Origin: Herbiconiux ginsengi
GTDB taxonomy: Bacteria; Actinomycetota; Actinomycetes; Actinomycetales; Microbacteriaceae
Length of the DNA: 64,000 bases
NCBI RefSeq assembly: GCF_900107435.1
Contig: NZ_FNPZ01000002.1
Coordinates: 310,001-374,000, forward strand
Direction of reading: 5' to 3'
The notes under the pieces: model-generated
What the model was told of the DNA's origin: nothing
Seen by the model: the letters and a program-made list of their open reading frames with translations, nothing else
Database searches by the model: none
Shown here: positions 17,256 through 47,231 of the stretch, in pieces
Layout of the letters: every line of letters begins with the position of its first letter
Numbering within the stretch: the stretch's first letter is position 1
Program-made: the position numbers and the translations under genes

Positions 17256-18674
17256 ATGTCAGACGTACTCATCGACCGACCCGAACTCGAGAACCTCGGT
17301 GTCTATGAATTCGGATGGTCGGACTCGGACACGGCGGGCGCCACGGCCAAACGCGGCATCAACGAGGCCGTCGTCACGAACATCTCCGAGCTCAAGAACG
17401 AGCCGGAATGGATGCTGAAGAACCGCCTGAAGGCGCTTCAGATCTTCGGCCGCAAGCCGATGCCGACGTGGGGTGCCGATCTCTCGGGCATCGACTTCGA
17501 CAACATCAAGTACTTCGTGCGATCGACCGAGAAGCAGGCCCAGACCTGGGACGACCTGCCCGACGACATCAAGAACACCTACGAGAAGCTCGGCATCCCC
17601 GAGGCGGAGCGTCAGCGCCTCGTCTCCGGCGTGGCCGCGCAGTACGAGTCGGAGGTGGTCTACCACCAGATCCGTGAAGACCTCGAGGCGCAGGGCGTCA
17701 TCTTCATGGACACCGACACCGCGCTCCGCGAGCACCCCGAGTTCTTCACCGAGTACTTCGGCACGGTCATCCCGTCGGGCGATAACAAGTTCGCCGCGCT
17801 GAACACGGCCGTCTGGTCGGGCGGTTCCTTCGTCTACGTTCCCAAGGGCGTGCACGTCGAGATCCCGCTGCAGGCCTACTTCCGCATCAACACGGAGAAC
17901 ATGGGTCAGTTCGAGCGCACGCTGATCATCGCCGACGAGGGCTCGTACGTGCACTACATCGAGGGCTGCACCGCGCCGATCTACAAGAGCGACTCGCTGC
18001 ACTCGGCCGTGGTGGAGATCATCGTGAAGAAGAACGCCCGCGTTCGCTACACGACGATCCAGAACTGGTCGAACAACGTCTACAACCTCGTCACCAAGCG
18101 CGCGATCGCGCACGAGGGCGCGACGATGGAGTGGATCGACGGCAACATCGGTTCCAAGGTCACCATGAAGTACCCGTCGATCTACCTGGTCGGCGAGCAT
18201 GCCAAGGGCGAGACGCTCTCGGTCGCCTTCGCGGGCCCCGGTCAGCACCAGGACGCGGGCGCGAAGATGATCCACATGGCTCCCTACACGCAGTCGTCGA
18301 TCGTCTCGAAGTCGATCGCCCGCGGCGGAGGCCGAGCCGGCTACCGCGGCGAGGTGCGGATGTCGGAGAACGCGCATCACTCGGCCAACACGGTGCGCTG
18401 CGATGCGCTGCTGGTCGACACGATCTCGCGATCGGACACCTACCCGGCCATCGACATCCGGGTCGACGATGTGCAGCTCGGTCATGAGGCCACGGTCTCG
18501 AAGGTCTCCGAGGAGCAGTTGTTCTACCTCATGTCGCGGGGTCTTCCCGAAGACGAGGCGATGGCGATGATCGTGCGCGGCTTCATCGAGCCCATCGCGC
18601 GTGAGCTGCCGATGGAATACGCCCTCGAACTCAACAAGCTCATCGAGATGGGCATGGAAGGCAGCGTCGGCTAA
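17256..18674 (+). CDS. sufB: Fe-S cluster assembly protein SufB
   Basis: A 472-residue scaffold subunit of the SufBC2D complex that builds [4Fe-4S] clusters. The SufB/SufD beta-helix fold is shown by [13 protein letters not shown] (about 230-242) and [15 protein letters not shown]. The C-terminal region has [17 protein letters not shown] and [20 protein letters not shown]. The length fits actinobacterial SufB. GGAAGGGAG lies upstream of the ATG. sufD starts on the next base after its stop. No intein is present, unlike mycobacterial SufB. Confidence 0.97.
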
Positions 18675-19880
18675 ATGGCGGCACCCGAAACAACCGCACC
18701 CGCAGCCCGGGTCGAGCCCGTTCAGCACGGATTCCAGGCGCACTCCGACGGCGGATCGGCCTTCGTGCCGGTGCAGACCCGCTCGGAGCGCTTCACCTCC
18801 ACTTCGGCCGACGACTTCGCCGCCGTGACGGGGCTGGAGTTCGAGTGGAAGTTCGCGCCGATGGCGAAGATCGCGCACCTCACGGCGGAGCCGCTCGACG
18901 GCTCGGTGGTCGAGGTGGCGGCCGACGCCGTCGACGGATTCTCGGTCGACTGGATCGCCCACGACGACGCCTTGATCGGATCGGCCGGCGCACCCGAAGA
19001 CCGCGCCTCGGCCAACGCCTGGTCGACGGCCGAGAAGGCCCTTCACGTGCGCGTCTCGGGTGAGGAGGGCGGCGAACTCATCGTCCGCCGCACCGGCTTC
19101 GGCAGCGCGCCCCGCGCCGCCCACGTCGTGATCGAAGCGGCACCGAACAGCCGCGGTGTCGTCATCCTGGAGCACAGCGGTGCGGCGAACCTCGCCGAGA
19201 ACGTCGAGATCATCGTGCGCGAGGGCGCCCAGCTCACGGTCGTGACCGTGCAGGAGTGGGACGACGAGGCGCTGCACCTGTCGAGCCACTTCGCCACGGT
19301 CGGCCGCGACGCCAACCTGCGTCACGTGATCGTCTCGCTCGGCGGCTCGGTGGTGCGGGTCAACCCCGCCATCCACCTCGTCGAGCAGGGAGCCTCGACG
19401 GATGCCTTCGGGCTCTACTTCGCCGACGCCGGCCAGTTCCTCGAGCAGCGCCCGTACATCGACCACGTCGCCGCGAACACCCGCAGCCGGGTCAACTACA
19501 AGGGCGCGCTGCAGGGCAAGGGCGCGCACACCGTGTGGGTGGGCGACGTGCTGATCGGCCCGCACGCCGACGGCACCGACAGCTACGAGCAGAACCGCAA
19601 CCTCGTGCTCTCCGAGGGGACGCGGGCCGACAGCATCCCGAACCTCGAGATCGAGACCGGCAACATCGTCGGCGCGGGCCACGCCTCCTCGACGGGCCGC
19701 TTCGACGACGAGCAGCTGTTCTACCTGCAGTCCCGCGGCATCTCGGAGGAAGAGGCGCGGCGACTCGTGGTGCGCGGCTTCCTCGCCGAGATCATCCAGC
19801 AGATCGGGTCGCCCGCGCTCGAGGAGCGACTGGCCGTGGCCGTCGAGGCGGAGCTGATCCGCTCCCAGGCTGCGGAGTAG
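18675..19880 (+). CDS. sufD: Fe-S cluster assembly protein SufD
   Basis: A 401-residue paralogue of SufB that completes the SufBC2D scaffold. The C-terminal half carries the conserved RVNYKGALQGKGAHTVWVG (about 275-293) and HASSTGRFDDEQLFYLQSRG segments. The N-terminal ~120 residues are variable. The ATG directly follows the sufB TAA with no gap, indicating coupled translation. Clusters assembled on SufB/D go to carriers and then to Fe-S enzymes. Confidence 0.96.
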   Translation: MAAPETTAPAARVEPVQHGFQAHSDGGSAFVPVQTRSERFTSTSADDFAAVTGLEFEWKFAPMAKIAHLTAEPLDGSVVEVAADAVDGFSVDWIAHDDALIGSAGAPEDRASANAWSTAEKALHVRVSGEEGGELIVRRTGFGSAPRAAHVVIEAAPNSRGVVILEHSGAANLAENVEIIVREGAQLTVVTVQEWDDEALHLSSHFATVGRDANLRHVIVSLGGSVVRVNPAIHLVEQGASTDAFGLYFADAGQFLEQRPYIDHVAANTRSRVNYKGALQGKGAHTVWVGDVLIGPHADGTDSYEQNRNLVLSEGTRADSIPNLEIETGNIVGAGHASSTGRFDDEQLFYLQSRGISEEEARRLVVRGFLAEIIQQIGSPALEERLAVAVEAELIRSQAAE

Positions 19881-19882
19881 AG

Positions 19883-20209
19883 ATGGCAGAGAAAGTCTGT
19901 GCATTCGACGACGTTCCCGTGAACCAGGCGATGCGCGTGGTGGTCGGGGGAGTGGCGATCGCGCTCGTGAAGGACTCGGCCGGCGAGTGCCACGCCATCG
20001 GCGACACCTGCACCCACGGCGACATCTCGCTCTCGGAGGGCTTCGTCGAAGACGACACGCTCGAGTGCTGGGCCCACGGCTCCAAGTTCTCGCTCGAGAC
20101 CGGGAAGCCGCTGTCGCTCCCGGCCTACGAGCCCGTTCCCGTCTTCGAGATCCAGGTGATCGACGGGGACATCTACATCGACCCAACCGTGACGAAAGTG
20201 ATTGATTAG
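19883..20209 (+). CDS. Rieske-type [2Fe-2S] ferredoxin
   Basis: A 108-residue small Rieske protein. The cluster ligands are visible: Cys43 and His45 in CTHG, Cys62 and His65 in CWAHG. It resembles the ferredoxin components of non-heme dioxygenases (NirD/BphF type), but no oxygenase is nearby. It lies between sufD and sufC, 2 bases after sufD and 1 base before sufC, so it belongs to the suf operon. A role as electron donor for cluster assembly is an inference. Confidence 0.95.
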   Translation: MAEKVCAFDDVPVNQAMRVVVGGVAIALVKDSAGECHAIGDTCTHGDISLSEGFVEDDTLECWAHGSKFSLETGKPLSLPAYEPVPVFEIQVIDGDIYIDPTVTKVID

Positions 20210-20210
20210 C

Positions 20211-20975
<765 letters not shown>

Positions 20976-20979
20976 CGAT

Positions 20980-21309
20980 ATGGTCACGACACTCGAACCG
21001 AAACTCTTCGACCAGGTCGAAGAGGCGCTGAAAGACGTGATGGACCCCGAGCTCGGTGTGAACATCGTCGACCTCGGCCTCATCTACGATCTCGGCTGGG
21101 ATGCGGAGCAGGACGCTCTGGTCATCAGCATGACCCTGACCTCGGCGGGGTGCCCGCTCACCGATGTGCTCGAAGAGCAGACGGCAGAGGCGCTCGACGG
21201 CGTGGTCGAGCAGTTCCGCATCAACTGGGTGTGGATGCCGCCGTGGGGCCCCGACAAGATCACCGACGACGGCCGCGACATGATGCGCGCCCTCGGCTTC
21301 TCCATCTGA
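20980..21309 (+). CDS. SufT-like DUF59/MIP18 Fe-S maturation factor
   Basis: A 109-residue DUF59 (MIP18/PaaD-like) protein. The N-terminal MDPELGVNIVDLGLIY (about 21-36) and Cys58 in TSAGCPLTD are the family marks; the Cys is thought to help hand over Fe-S clusters. It is the last gene of the suf operon, 4 bases after sufC. In other actinobacteria sufS and sufU usually stand before this gene; here both are missing. SufT is the usual name when in the suf operon. Confidence 0.92.
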   Translation: MVTTLEPKLFDQVEEALKDVMDPELGVNIVDLGLIYDLGWDAEQDALVISMTLTSAGCPLTDVLEEQTAEALDGVVEQFRINWVWMPPWGPDKITDDGRDMMRALGFSI

Positions 21310-21326
21310 ACCACCGCGCCCGACCG

Positions 21327-21397
21327 AAATCGCAAACGTCGCGGCATCCGGCCCCACAGGGGGCTCGGATGCCGCGACGTTTGCGTTTCTGAACCGG
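21327..21397 (+). repeat. Palindromic element E1 (probable suf terminator), left flank of the DUF559 gene
   Basis: A perfect 20-bp inverted repeat (arms 21331-21350 and 21366-21385) starts 21 bases after the suf operon and has an inner GCCCC/GGGGC pairing. It ends with a 21-base stretch (21377-21397) that recurs with one mismatch at 22432-22452, at the end of element E2. The middle of the two elements also aligns. It probably terminates the suf transcript, and it may also be a copy of a dispersed palindrome family. Confidence 0.75.
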
Positions 21398-21404
21398 ATC
21401 TGAC

Positions 21405-21431
21405 TTCTCCACAGGCCGGCTGTTCTCCACA
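21405..21431 (+). promoter_or_regulatory. Two direct TTCTCCACA motifs before the DUF559 gene
   Basis: TTCTCCACAG occurs at 21405 and again at 21423, 18 bases apart in the same orientation, 50-77 bases before the ATG. Each is one base from the DnaA-box consensus TTATCCACA. Possible operator or DnaA-like sites; function unknown. Confidence 0.4.
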
Positions 21432-21481
21432 GATGCCCGTGCTCGGCCCCCGTTCGGCGGACCGGCCTGCACGATGATGCG

Positions 21482-22366
21482 ATGTCATCCGTCGCTTCTC
21501 TCGTCTCCGCGCTCGGTGGCGTCGCGTCCTGTCGCGAGCTCGCCGAATACGGCCACCCCGCCGCCGATGTCACGCGCGCTGTTCGCACCGGATCCGTGCT
21601 CAGGGTGCGGAACGGATGGGTGGCGGTGCCGACCGGCGCGCCTGAGAATGTCGTGGCCGCGGTGAGAGCAGGCGGCACGCTCTCGTGCTTGTCCGCGCTT
21701 GCCCCGCTCACCGTGTGGACCGCCGACGACGCTCGACGACACATCCGCATCCGTCGGCACGGTGTGGCTCCTCCTGCTGCTGCGGGGGTCGTGGTTCATC
21801 GTGCCCTTCCGCTCGTCGGACTGCAGTCTGCGCGCGGGGGAGTCGACAGCCCTGAGTGGGCGATCGCACACGCCGTACTGTGCCAGGGTCGCCGCGACGC
21901 GGTGGCCACGCTCGACTCGGCGATCTACCGCGGCGTGATCACGCGCCGCCGCCTCGAATCCGTGCTGGCCCAGCTGCCCCGACGGTATTCAGATCTGCTC
22001 CTGTTGTGCAATCCGGAAGCGGAGTCCGGGCTCGAAACCCATCTGCGGCTCCTGTTGCGTTCGGTCGGGATCGACCTGCGTGTGCAGGTGAAGATCAGCG
22101 GTGTCGGCCGTGTCGACCTCCTGATCGGCGAACGACTGGTGATCGAGACAGATGGGCGAGAATGGCACTCGGACAAGGATTCCTTCGCGAAAGACAAGTG
22201 GCGTGATCTTGCGCTGGCCGAGCGAGGCTACCTCGTGCTGCGCCTCAGCTACCAACAGGTACTGTTCGAGTCCGAGCGCGTTCTCGAGGTCGTGCGCGGA
22301 ATCGTAGGGCGTGGCGAGCACCGCTGGAACGGGCGGCATCGGCGTGCCGGACTCGTGGGGTTGTGA
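21482..22366 (+). CDS. DUF559 (Vsr-like endonuclease fold) protein with AbiEi-like N-terminus
   Basis: A 294-residue protein. The N-terminal ~55 residues resemble the winged helix of AbiEi-type antitoxins (ASCRELAEYGHPAADVTRAV). The C-terminal part (about 175-275) matches DUF559, related to very-short-patch-repair endonucleases. Candidate acidic site residues are visible: Glu181/Glu185, Asp212 in GRVDLLIG, and Glu222/Asp224 in VIETDGREWH. No AbiEii toxin partner is adjacent, so it is not a complete AbiE system. It stands alone, flanked on both sides by homologous palindromic elements. DNA binding or cleavage is inferred from fold only. Its codon use is somewhat less GC-biased than its neighbours, which hints at transfer. 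Confidence 0.8.
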   Translation: MSSVASLVSALGGVASCRELAEYGHPAADVTRAVRTGSVLRVRNGWVAVPTGAPENVVAAVRAGGTLSCLSALAPLTVWTADDARRHIRIRRHGVAPPAAAGVVVHRALPLVGLQSARGGVDSPEWAIAHAVLCQGRRDAVATLDSAIYRGVITRRRLESVLAQLPRRYSDLLLLCNPEAESGLETHLRLLLRSVGIDLRVQVKISGVGRVDLLIGERLVIETDGREWHSDKDSFAKDKWRDLALAERGYLVLRLSYQQVLFESERVLEVVRGIVGRGEHRWNGRHRRAGLVGL

Positions 22367-22376
22367 CGCCGATGCC

Positions 22377-22452
22377 GTTCAGAATCGCACGCTTCGCGCA
22401 ATCCGAGCCCCATACGAGGCCGGGTAATCCCACGTTTGCGATTCTGAACCGG
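22377..22452 (+). repeat. Palindromic element E2, right flank of the DUF559 gene
   Basis: Inverted arms of 13 bp (22377-22389 and 22437-22449, GTTCAGAATCGCA / TGCGATTCTGAAC) enclose 47 bases. The last 21 bases (22432-22452) match the end of E1 with one mismatch, and the interior aligns with E1 with small gaps. The orientation is the same as E1. It may act as a terminator 10 bases past the DUF559 gene. Confidence 0.7.
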
Positions 22453-22501
22453 GTGGCCGCGCGGATGGGCGGATGGGCGGTGGGTGGCCGGAGGATTGCG
22501 C

Positions 22502-22537
22502 TGGGGGCGAGCGGGGTCGGGCGGGGGCGCGGGGCGG
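22502..22537 (+). other. G-run cluster, possible G-quadruplex
   Basis: Five runs of three or more G lie within 32 bases (22503-22534) on the plus strand, just before the TAGACT box of the ABC-F gene. A looser G-run cluster precedes it from about 22464. Quadruplex formation is predicted from spacing only. Confidence 0.4.
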
Positions 22538-22539
22538 AA

Positions 22540-22545
22540 TAGACT
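22540..22545 (+). promoter_or_regulatory. Candidate -10 box for the ABC-F gene
   Basis: TAGACT, 38 bases before the GTG start at 22584, directly after the G-run cluster that would cover the -35 region. Confidence 0.4.
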
Positions 22546-22583
22546 GGAGCGTTCCCCCGTCGCAACAAGAATTGGATATCTCT

Positions 22584-24182
<1,599 letters not shown>

Positions 24183-24213
24183 TCCGGCTGACCTGATCGG
24201 CTCGGCCTGATTG

Positions 24214-25056
24214 TCACCGCCCCGTGCGGTCGATGATCTCGTCTTCGATCTCGGCGTCGGTCTTGCGGGCGAGGCGCTTGCGCTCCCGCTCAGCGGCGCG
24301 CTCCTGTTCCTCGGGGTCGTCTTCGTTCACGCGGCGGAACTCCTGCCGCACGATGTAGCCGAGGGCCACGAACCCGAGCAGCCCGAACGCGAACCACTGG
24401 AAGGTGTAGGAGAGGTGGGCGCCTTCGTCGGGCGTCGGCTTCACGGCGGCGGTGGGGCGCTCGGCGGGCGCAGGGTTCTCCGAGGCGAGCAGACCGTAGG
24501 CGGCGGTGTAGGTCGGCAGCCCGACCTGGTCGGCGAGCACGGGGAGTTCGATCGTGGCGATCTGCCCGGCGACCGCGCTGCGATTGTCGAGGTGCGGCTC
24601 TCCGGCTTTCAGGCGTGCGACGACCGAGACCGTTCCCGTGGGAGCCGCGGGCACGGCATCCGGAACGTCCTGCTTCTGACCGGTGGGCACCCAGCCGCGG
24701 TCGACGATGAAGACCTCGCCGCTCGTCAACTGGAACGGCACCAACACGTCGAAACCCACGTCGCCGCCGAGCGGTCGGTTGCGCACGAGCACCTGGTCAT
24801 CGACGAGGTAGTGTCCCTGCATCGAGACGGTCAGCCACTCCTGCGAGGGATCGTAGGAATCGAGCTGGGGGAGCGCCGTGGCGAGCGGGGTGGGGTCGGC
24901 GTCGAAATTCGTGGCGACGCGGTTGATCTCGGCCACCGCTTCGTCTCGGCGGGCGAGTTGCCACATCGCCAAGAGCACGCACACGATCGCGAACACGATC
25001 ACGAGCGCGAGATAGCCGGCCCAGCGACGGCTGAGCAGGAACCGCCAGCCCGTCAT
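24214..25056 (-). CDS. SURF1 family protein (cytochrome oxidase assembly)
   Basis: A 280-residue membrane protein. One membrane segment near the N-terminus (about 12-32, before WQLARRDEA) and one near 225-243 (FAFGLLGFVALGYIV) flank an extracytoplasmic domain with the SURF1 marks GHYLVDDQVLVRNRP and VFIVDRGWVP. SURF1 helps insert heme A into aa3-type oxidase, which fits ctaA/ctaB in this window. A charged, Arg/Glu-rich tail follows. Its ATG overlaps the stop of the upstream small gene as ATGA. Confidence 0.93.
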   Translation of the reverse strand: MTGWRFLLSRRWAGYLALVIVFAIVCVLLAMWQLARRDEAVAEINRVATNFDADPTPLATALPQLDSYDPSQEWLTVSMQGHYLVDDQVLVRNRPLGGDVGFDVLVPFQLTSGEVFIVDRGWVPTGQKQDVPDAVPAAPTGTVSVVARLKAGEPHLDNRSAVAGQIATIELPVLADQVGLPTYTAAYGLLASENPAPAERPTAAVKPTPDEGAHLSYTFQWFAFGLLGFVALGYIVRQEFRRVNEDDPEEQERAAERERKRLARKTDAEIEDEIIDRTGR

Positions 25057-41967: not shown

Positions 41968-42080
41968 CCCTCCGACGCGCTGCCGAGCGCTCCCACCCCT
42001 CGCCGACCCGTCAGTTCATGTCGCTTTCGGCACTCCACAACGGCATCAGGTGACGGCTCGGCGAAGATGGAAGCACTCGC

Positions 42081-46880: not shown

Positions 46881-47231
46881 ATGCTCGGCTCACTCGACGA
46901 GGTCGTCTTCGACTGTGCAGAGCCCACCGCCCTGGTGCGGTTCTGGCATCAGGTGCTGGGAGGCAGTGCACCCACCGACCGCAGCCCCGACTGGTCGTTC
47001 TTCGATGCGCCATCCGGGCTCCGGATCGCGTTCCAGCGCGTCCCCGAGGGCAAGAGCGCGAAGAACCGGGTGCATCTCGACGTCGCGGTCGACGACGTTC
47101 CGGATGCGACGGACGCCGCAGAACGCCTGGGAGCCGTCAGGCAGGGCCCACTGCACAGCGACGCCGTGGGAACCTTCCAGGTGCTCCTCGACCCCGAGGG
47201 CAACGAGTGGTGCGTGGTACGCGCGAACTAG
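46881..47231 (+). CDS. VOC-family (glyoxalase-like) protein
   Basis: A 116-residue single-domain protein with the vicinal-oxygen-chelate layout: DEVVFDCAEPTALVRFWHQVLG at the start, VHLDVAVDDV in the middle, and VLLDPEGNEWCVV at the end. His/Glu metal ligands are plausible in VHLDV and GNEW. It resembles DUF/Glyoxalase_6 proteins of unknown substrate. Probably co-transcribed with the peptide transporter. Its stop codon shares CTAG with a possible stop of the broken minus-strand gene. Confidence 0.85.
   Translation: MLGSLDEVVFDCAEPTALVRFWHQVLGGSAPTDRSPDWSFFDAPSGLRIAFQRVPEGKSAKNRVHLDVAVDDVPDATDAAERLGAVRQGPLHSDAVGTFQVLLDPEGNEWCVVRAN

Follow-up and report, generated by a model that had tools for sequence, protein, structure and literature searches.

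A DUF559 nuclease gene bracketed by two copies of a dispersed palindrome in Herbiconiux: a candidate gene-plus-repeat unit with REP/RAYT-like features

Between the suf genes and a gene for an ABC-F-type ATPase, the Herbiconiux genome analyzed here carries a nuclease-like gene enclosed by two palindromic elements, E1 and E2, and the locus raises the question of what, if anything, ties this gene to the palindromes at its sides. The original prediction, made from a 64-kb stretch of DNA (the window), saw in the arrangement a unit of gene and palindromes, possibly self-spreading, which would recall RAYT transposases and their REP palindromes with an unrelated enzyme in their place. The features of the locus are collected in Table 1.

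The limits of the two elements were set in register with the other genomic copies. As originally noticed, they share a 21-base end (21377-21397 and 22432-22452 are identical at 20 of 21 bases), and 19 bases of this common end, with up to 3 mismatches allowed, occur at these two places only in the window, against 0.02 expected from shuffling. Both are indeed inverted repeats: E1 has 28-nt arms, 89% complementary, in which exact 20-bp arms are readable in the letters, and E2 has exact 13-nt arms. Their supposed common orientation did not hold up, since each element is its own inverted repeat: over the 73 bases, 47 agree directly and 53 when inverted, and their relative orientation is ambiguous. 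A fixed orientation rule for palindrome pairs was also discarded, the 22 loci with both palindromes being divided into 9 direct, 6 inverted and 7 ambiguous ones. Rfam returned for E1 sub-threshold matches only, to two microRNA precursor families and malK-III, far under the gathering scores, which we take as chance similarity to a hairpin.

Table 1. Features of the nuclease locus (positions in the window)
Feature	Position	Strand	Remarks
E1, upstream 73-bp palindromic element	21322..21394	.	28/36 positions paired
DnaA-box-like motif TTCTCCACAG, copy 1	21405..21414	+	between E1 and start codon
DnaA-box-like motif TTCTCCACAG, copy 2	21423..21432	+	
Nuclease gene, 294 aa (P0001)	21482..22366	+	AbiEi-like N-terminal part and DUF559/MTES_1575 (EDxHD/Vsr-like) C-terminal part
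AbiEi-like part, residues 5-107, presumably DNA-binding	21494..21802	+	PADLOC AbiEi E=9.6e-5; structure match 6y8q
Nuclease domain, residues 181-271	22022..22294	+	Pfam, conserved residues, matches to 3r3p and 1cw0
E2, downstream 73-bp palindromic element, degenerate	22377..22449	.	22/36 positions paired

A single gene lies between E1 and E2, and its proposed composition, an AbiEi-like N-terminus joined to a Vsr-like nuclease fold, agrees with both profile and structure-model matches. Its product matches the Pfam family DUF559 (PF04480) over the curated cut-off (E=3.9e-7) and MTES_1575 (PF18741) slightly under it (E=1.1e-8, 35.4 bits, cut-off 38.2); the matches to AbiEi_4 (E=0.013) and to Vsr (E=0.029, 14.7 bits, cut-off 27) lie below theirs, the latter leaving P0001 outside the Vsr mismatch endonucleases. 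A PADLOC homing-endonuclease profile also matches (E=6e-5), and no NCBIfam profile does. The structure model, built from 21 aligned sequences with a mean pLDDT of 92.2, was found by Foldseek to resemble the AbiEi antitoxin 6y8q (E=4.8e-6), the homing endonuclease I-Bth0305I (3r3p, E=3.7e-4) and Vsr (1cw0, E=0.012). From the PADLOC AbiEi match, and from the match of the nuclease-family profile to 3r3p (E=5.5e-6 over positions 211-270), we infer that the first of these concerns the N-terminal part and the other two the nuclease part. Residues E185, D212, E222, D224, H229 and D238 are invariant in the 21 sequences, with the conserved acidic and histidine residues of the EDxHD type present, and the enzyme is therefore probably active.

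The genes around the nuclease are of the SufB/D, SufC, FeS_assembly_P, ABC-F ATPase and SURF1 types. A toxin partner of the AbiEii nucleotidyltransferase family was not found in the six neighboring ORFs (17256-25056). The ABC-F-type gene was considered for this role and rejected: its AAA_21 match, the description of which mentions a putative AbiEii toxin, denotes an ATPase domain, and ABC_tran matches far more strongly. One scan for viral relatives of the nuclease confirmed none. DUF559/MTES_1575 genes are present in all 16 analyzed genomes of the genus and in many other actinobacterial genera, where we know of no role for them.

When palindromes like E1 and E2 were sought across the whole genome (G000, 4.85 Mb in 12 contigs), as the original prediction had proposed, they turned out to be dispersed. 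The element is a 73-bp near-palindrome with conserved 18-nt outer arms (consensus GTTCGAAATCGCAAACGT) that start at a distance of 55 bases from one another, an inner stem more variable than the arms and a short loop; as read by eye, the copies end in GTTC/GAAC and contain CGTC within the stem only. With up to 2 mismatches, G000 holds 61 arm matches, 46 of which make up 23 complete in-register elements, the other 15, including E2, being unpaired. Over the inner 16 positions, 494 of 736 positions are paired in 46 distinct copies, as compared to 443 +/- 10 when the halves are re-dealt (the largest of 5000 shuffles reached 477), with two inner positions paired in just 8 and 6 of the copies. This excess indicates that hairpin folding seems to be maintained by compensating changes; arm-to-arm copying could give the same pattern. 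No covariation beyond conservation was detected in the outer arms of the same copies (694 of 828 against 689 +/- 7).

Genomic localization was determined for 43 copies, those flanking the suf-locus nuclease included, by means of a crude codon-usage gene caller which misses the nuclease gene itself; for three of the 43, the overlap with a predicted ORF exceeds 30 nt. Twenty have convergent neighboring genes, 23 have co-directional and none has divergent ones, the corresponding background being 141, 602 and 139 of 882 adjacent pairs, and the median distance to the nearest gene 3' end is 12 bp, a hairpin at a 3' end being the placement of an intrinsic terminator. These figures speak against a first alternative, which we deem unlikely, namely that the palindromes are operators, the AbiEi-like part repressing its own gene via the upstream element and the dispersed copies forming a regulon or acting as decoys. 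AbiEi antitoxins do bind inverted repeats at their own promoters, the P0001 model matches AbiEi, and one palindrome lies upstream of the start codon, but the dispersed copies avoid promoters (none of 43 divergent, against 139 of 882) and keep close to 3' ends.

The same figures would suit a second alternative, in which the palindromes are bidirectional terminators of transcription that happen to have been duplicated around genes, with the nuclease gene as a passenger. Besides the 3'-end location and the frequent convergent placement, it could draw on the T-rich outer arm following a GC-rich stem, on the compensating inner pairs and on the terminator-like palindromes found at three suf sites devoid of the gene (see below). 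It is nevertheless improbable in our judgment: the arm spacing is one and the same in 17 of 17 copies from three long stretches, although 53-57 bases were permitted and shuffled stretches yielded none, the dispersed copies match the resident nuclease across 16 genomes, and related genes are bracketed in other genera. The copies may have terminator activity and yet owe their origin to something else.

Within the genus, 12 of 16 genomes have the nuclease gene at this place, with the suf genes on one side and the ABC-F-type gene on the other, and some of them have about 0.5-0.7 kb of extra sequence between the nuclease and ABC-F-type genes. All 12 orthologs have a palindrome both upstream and downstream, those of G006 scoring weakly (9.4 and 10.2) and the downstream copies of G000, G014 and G005 being recognized by their arms only; a second palindrome 3' of the gene is not what an operator would call for. 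A first palindrome type is shared by G000, G014, G005, G008 and G003, a second one, with GGACTTCTCCAAACGA arms, by G002 and G007, and further types occur in G011/G012, in G006 and in G013/G009. Each suf-locus nuclease type in the genus is thereby shown, on sequence comparison, to have its own palindrome type on both sides. The suf loci of G001, G004, G010 and G015 lack the gene. The original prediction had pointed to such empty sites, with a single palindrome, as a check, and one palindrome indeed lies at the junction in all four, a favorable outcome, though those of G001, G010 and G015 resemble ordinary bidirectional terminators. The G004 palindrome, alone among the four, was assigned to a type, that of G002/G007, and G001 has a second, weak one (score 9.0) farther on.

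Gene and palindromes do not follow the history of their surroundings. In the core tree, built from neighboring genes, G000 pairs with G002 (92.7% nucleotide identity, support 1.0) and G007 falls with G014/G005 (0.963); in the nuclease tree G000 groups with G014 and G005 (80-81% amino acid identity, support 0.997) and G002 with G007 (74.6%, support 1.0), several other nodes of the two trees being weak. The palindrome type at the suf locus tracks the nuclease tree, not the core-gene tree. A gene about 470 kb away, an FMN-dependent dehydrogenase according to Pfam, for which long BLASTN matches were obtained in only 9 of the 16 genomes, G000 itself counted, does not group G000 with G014/G005 either, its identity to the G000 gene being 87% in G002 and G012, 86% in G010 and G015, 84% in G005 and 83% in G014.

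The spacers delimit the exchanged piece. Between G000 and G002, 11 of 12 bases agree in the 15-bp spacer ahead of the upstream palindrome, as do 109 of 121 in the 137-bp spacer beyond the downstream one. In G014 the latter is 57 bp only, identical at 53 of 57 positions, and corresponds to the ABC-F-adjacent part common to all. The spacer from the upstream palindrome to the start codon is not discriminating (74% vs 72%). The exchanged piece is therefore bounded by the outer edges of the two palindromes, and the comparison shows the nuclease gene and its palindromes to have been swapped jointly at the suf locus.

The dispersed populations change along with the nuclease. Arm matches of the G000 type number 61, 51, 41, 29 and 21 in the five carriers of the corresponding locus (G000, G005, G014, G003 and G008), and 9, 10, 1, 1, 3, 1, 2, 1, 5, 1 and 3 in the 11 non-carriers; arms of the G002 type have 58 matches in G002 and 25 in G007, and 0-9 in the other 14 genomes, the 9 being in G000. 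Full separation of 5 carriers from 11 would have a probability of 1/4368 under independence, the genomes being related and so not 16 independent cases; relatedness does not account for the difference between G000 and G002. The stricter core pattern GCAAACGT-N35-39-ACGTTTGC, present in 5 of 60 genomes including G000, all from the one genus Herbiconiux, gives a looser matching of types: 19 complete elements were counted in G000, 12 in G005 and 7 in G014, but 1 and 0 in the carriers G008 and G003, and 3 in the non-carrier G002. For the two types tested, the arm counts show the palindrome to be dispersed in the genomes carrying the matching nuclease.

Other DUF559 loci, the inspection of which had also been proposed, carry palindromes of their own types. 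A palindrome (score 11 or more, length at least 28 nt) was found within about 500 bp at 50 of 57 genus loci, as compared to 74 of 300 pieces drawn at random from these genomes under the same criterion. Palindrome thresholds and search patterns were our own choice, the former being 13 in general, 11 for genus loci and 9 for suf sites lacking the gene. G000 has 14 PF18741 matches, the two weakest of which (E above 0.2) were left out of this count; from the 53 genus protein matches G008:C148 and G002:C1:192259 were omitted, and one match is a fragment inside L074. At some loci the matched stretch is shorter than the gene, so that distances were measured to the match.

Two other G000 nucleases are also flanked by palindromes on both sides, with dispersed arms. 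At up to 3 mismatches, GATCCGTCACTTNNGGTCG arms have 70 matches in G000 vs 13 for the reversed control and are typically 36 apart; CGACYCGCCAAAATNCGCCC arms have 59 vs 2, typically 37 apart, some of them belonging to related variants. The GGTATGAGAATC family is dispersed in G005 and G014 and flanks a nuclease in each (L075, L072). We also tried an exclusive pairing of all long palindromes with nucleases of their own genome, which proved only partial: 6 of 14, 6 of 21 and 8 of 22 share an 11-mer with nuclease-flank families, and these matches are not exclusive to the own genome. At 42000-42064 the window holds a degenerate palindrome of the GATCCGTCACTT family, that of the DUF559 gene G000:C4:619371. 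Palindromes of GCGCAAAGTGCCCCCTCCC or similar sequence occur at G014:C1:2011489 and 2073964 and at G005:C1:1694652 and 1694741, with no matching nuclease flank in their own genome.

Beyond the genus, a scan of an 84,980-species collection gave 201 relatives of the nuclease; the best 80 of the 201 were analyzed, 25 from genus genomes and 55 from outside, among them Subtercola, Agreia, Agromyces, Cryobacterium, Leifsonia, Propionibacteriaceae, Williamsia and others. Palindromes with a score of at least 13 were detected within 250 bp at 49 of these 80 loci, on both sides at 22 of them (29 of 55 and 13, respectively, outside the genus); 80 shuffled whole loci contained 6 in total. A length of 60-79 nt is found for 63 of the 72 near palindromes, vs 8 of 18 farther ones. 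An exact word of 12 or more is common to both flanks at 42 of the 78 loci with sufficient flanking sequence, vs 5.5% of 1541 mismatched-locus pairs (outside the genus, 32 of 54 vs 3.8% of 1056), and 13 of the 80 loci have neither a palindrome nor a common flank word of 11 or more. The arm found at locus L163, in Salinibacterium soli, has 27 matches in that genome and 0-2 in five others. The bracketed nuclease genes thus look like a family of gene-plus-repeat units. It had originally been counted as an objection if copies occurred at many unrelated genes with no enrichment near DUF559 and relatives always had the gene; half of this was seen, since copies do adjoin many unrelated genes, in the manner of REPs, but palindromes are enriched at DUF559 loci and relatives sometimes lack the gene. 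GCAGGATG or ACAGGATG arms, perhaps one widespread specificity, recur at the DUF559 loci L143, L156, L157, L159, L173, L182 and L183, in Leifsonia, Agromyces, Cryobacterium, Glaciibacter and Frigoribacterium.

The leader of the gene offers a further shared feature. In the window, the two DnaA-box-like motifs of Table 1 are the only matches on the plus strand, one more being present on the minus strand (46913-46922). A wider form, [TC][TC][ACG]T[CG]CACAG, defined after inspection of the motif data, lies upstream of the start codon on the coding strand at 44 of the 79 loci with sufficient flank (34 of 55 outside the genus), on the other strand at 5, and downstream at none, as compared to a shuffled mean of 0.5 and a background of 26 in 13494 strand-specific 160-bp tiles. 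Among its 51 occurrences, 11 fall within -60 to -56 and another 11 within -88 to -83. The narrower T.TCCACAG, tried first, was found at 32 of 79 loci, both strands considered, and at none downstream. We take the motif to fit the actinobacterial DnaA box, in which case it would be a hint of replication-linked expression.

Movement was evaluated for 17 copies, compared between species in 280 kb of G000, 400 kb of G014 and 400 kb of G005. The copy at G000:C3:205222 is absent from the matching site in both G014 and G005 and that at G005:1486987 from the site in G014; for the copy at G000:435547, no flanks were found in the other two stretches. An empty counterpart thus exists for just 2 of 17 copies, and such differences between matching sites do not separate gain from loss; apart from two G005 copies that bracket a gene (see below), all others lie at sites where one or more of the other genomes likewise has a copy. 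Since most compared copies lie at shared sites, turnover or movement is slow. No target-site duplication could be read at the two aligned gain/loss sites, where the flanks are too diverged.

Genes other than the nuclease can come between copies, as seen at G005:C1:1735100-1736710 (L241), where a CWB2 gene (PF04122) lies between two near-identical palindromes (copies at 1735100 and 1736638) and G000 and G014 have a single one. Two further stretches of 1 to 1.4 kb are enclosed by palindrome copies: G000:C2:781060-782507 (L298), with a 406-aa ORF which by eye resembles a cation/proton antiporter, and G005:C1:2259586-2260672 (L296). The CWB2 gene is what one would expect under a third alternative, in which the palindromes are independent repeats spread by some other factor, the nuclease being carried between them by homologous recombination and the matching of types reflecting shared history. 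We hold this, too, to be doubtful, given that the nuclease family is repeatedly bracketed in many genera, that the core-tree sisters G000 and G002 harbor palindrome populations that are largely distinct and in each case match the resident nuclease, and that, among mobilizers, the Y1 transposases searched for were not found in G000.

We consider it rather probable that E1, the gene and E2 form a mobile or once-mobile unit, in which an EDxHD-type nuclease would have the palindrome bracketing its gene as cognate site. The AbiEi-like part, probably dimeric, would recognize the two conserved arms, and the nuclease domain would nick or cut the palindrome, perhaps as a hairpin exposed in replication. 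Repair from another copy would then either seed further intergenic positions with the palindrome or insert the gene, together with its flanking palindromes, into an existing one, so that the unit would act both in the manner of REP/RAYT and in that of a homing gene. Movement of the gene by recombination between repeats, which the original prediction had listed as an alternative, may be part of the mechanism, a different gene lying between two copies in G005. The target on which I-Bth0305I is reported to dimerize is nearly 60 bp long (PMC3943268), in agreement with a symmetric element whose arms have a fixed spacing. TnpA_REP is described as acting on folded single-stranded REP (PMC8266576), and the compensating inner pairs would fit a similar action. 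Against the reading of the locus as a unit, it counts that the enzyme would find targets in undamaged palindromes adjoining its own gene. The downstream palindrome, however, is degraded in the three genomes measured, with 22, 18 and 20 of 36 positions paired, as compared to a mean of 26.6 in 40 other copies, three of which are at 22 or less.

The closest parallel is the REP/RAYT system (REPtron), in which, according to two reports, the gene is flanked by palindromes which are also dispersed in intergenic positions 3' of genes, often between convergent ones, and which co-vary with the enzyme (PMC8266576, PMC3733652). The same sources mention a REP group of imperfect palindromes with a bulge, and the second a large REP class apparently without a dedicated transposase. 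Here too, palindromes flank the gene, are dispersed and co-vary with the enzyme. The differences are that the enzyme is AbiEi-like and EDxHD/Vsr-like instead of HUH/Y1, that the element measures 73 bp, and mostly 60-79 nt at other loci, as against 20-40 bp for the REP palindrome, and that no unpaired GTAG or CGTC tag is seen by eye outside the stem. Descent from a RAYT was considered and dismissed: the HUH/Y1 transposase profile (PF01797) has no match in G000, with control matches in 5 of 14 named genomes, and the P0001 model matches AbiEi and EDxHD structures. The original idea of a RAYT/REP-like unit with an unrelated enzyme is thus supported by the dispersal, by the palindromes at DUF559 loci and by the lack of a Y1 transposase in G000; that the unit spreads itself is what we infer from them.

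Likenesses to other systems are confined to parts of the locus. The catalytic domain resembles EDxHD homing endonucleases in fold and sequence (I-Bth0305I, 3r3p), but the gene has a house-keeping gene on either side instead of residing in an intron or intein, and has in addition the AbiEi-like DNA-binding part, two flanking palindromes and a dispersed palindrome population. To our knowledge, no member of the homing-endonuclease family has been described whose gene is enclosed by two copies of a dispersed palindrome. The similarity to AbiEi antitoxins of type IV toxin-antitoxin systems consists of the 6y8q and PADLOC AbiEi matches given above; the fused nuclease domain and the suf, ABC-F and SURF1-type neighbors set the locus apart. 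P0001 shares domain membership with the Vsr-fold family MTES_1575/DUF559. MTES_1575 has been presented as a novel Vsr-type REase forming part of a large fused protein (PMC3710099), in passages of a work on HEPN fusions that do not mention palindromes. The open full-text literature, to which our search was confined, subscription papers and preprints lying outside its scope, yielded no description of DUF559 genes with palindromes, and none of the papers there that name DUF559 has palindromes as the subject of its title. The combination of palindrome and nuclease thus appears to be new, its mode of working being presumably analogous to a known kind, that of REP/RAYT.

A broader generalization, to which we give an even chance, is that AbiEi-EDxHD (DUF559) nucleases constitute a class of selfish or domesticated units widespread among actinobacteria, with several per genome, each maintaining and spreading a private population of hairpin palindromes and tied to replication via DnaA boxes; they would be a second, independently evolved REP/RAYT-like system. 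We know of no such palindrome-maintaining role for this type of enzyme. DUF559/MTES_1575 genes would gain a likely substrate in their own palindrome families, and the REP-like intergenic palindromes of actinobacteria a likely source in DUF559 nucleases. If the enzyme does spread its palindromes, the task ascribed to RAYTs would have been solved a second time, by an unrelated nuclease, and the way in which a gene and its repeat remain matched would become testable; these loci would also be a natural source of nucleases whose target sites are long and readable.
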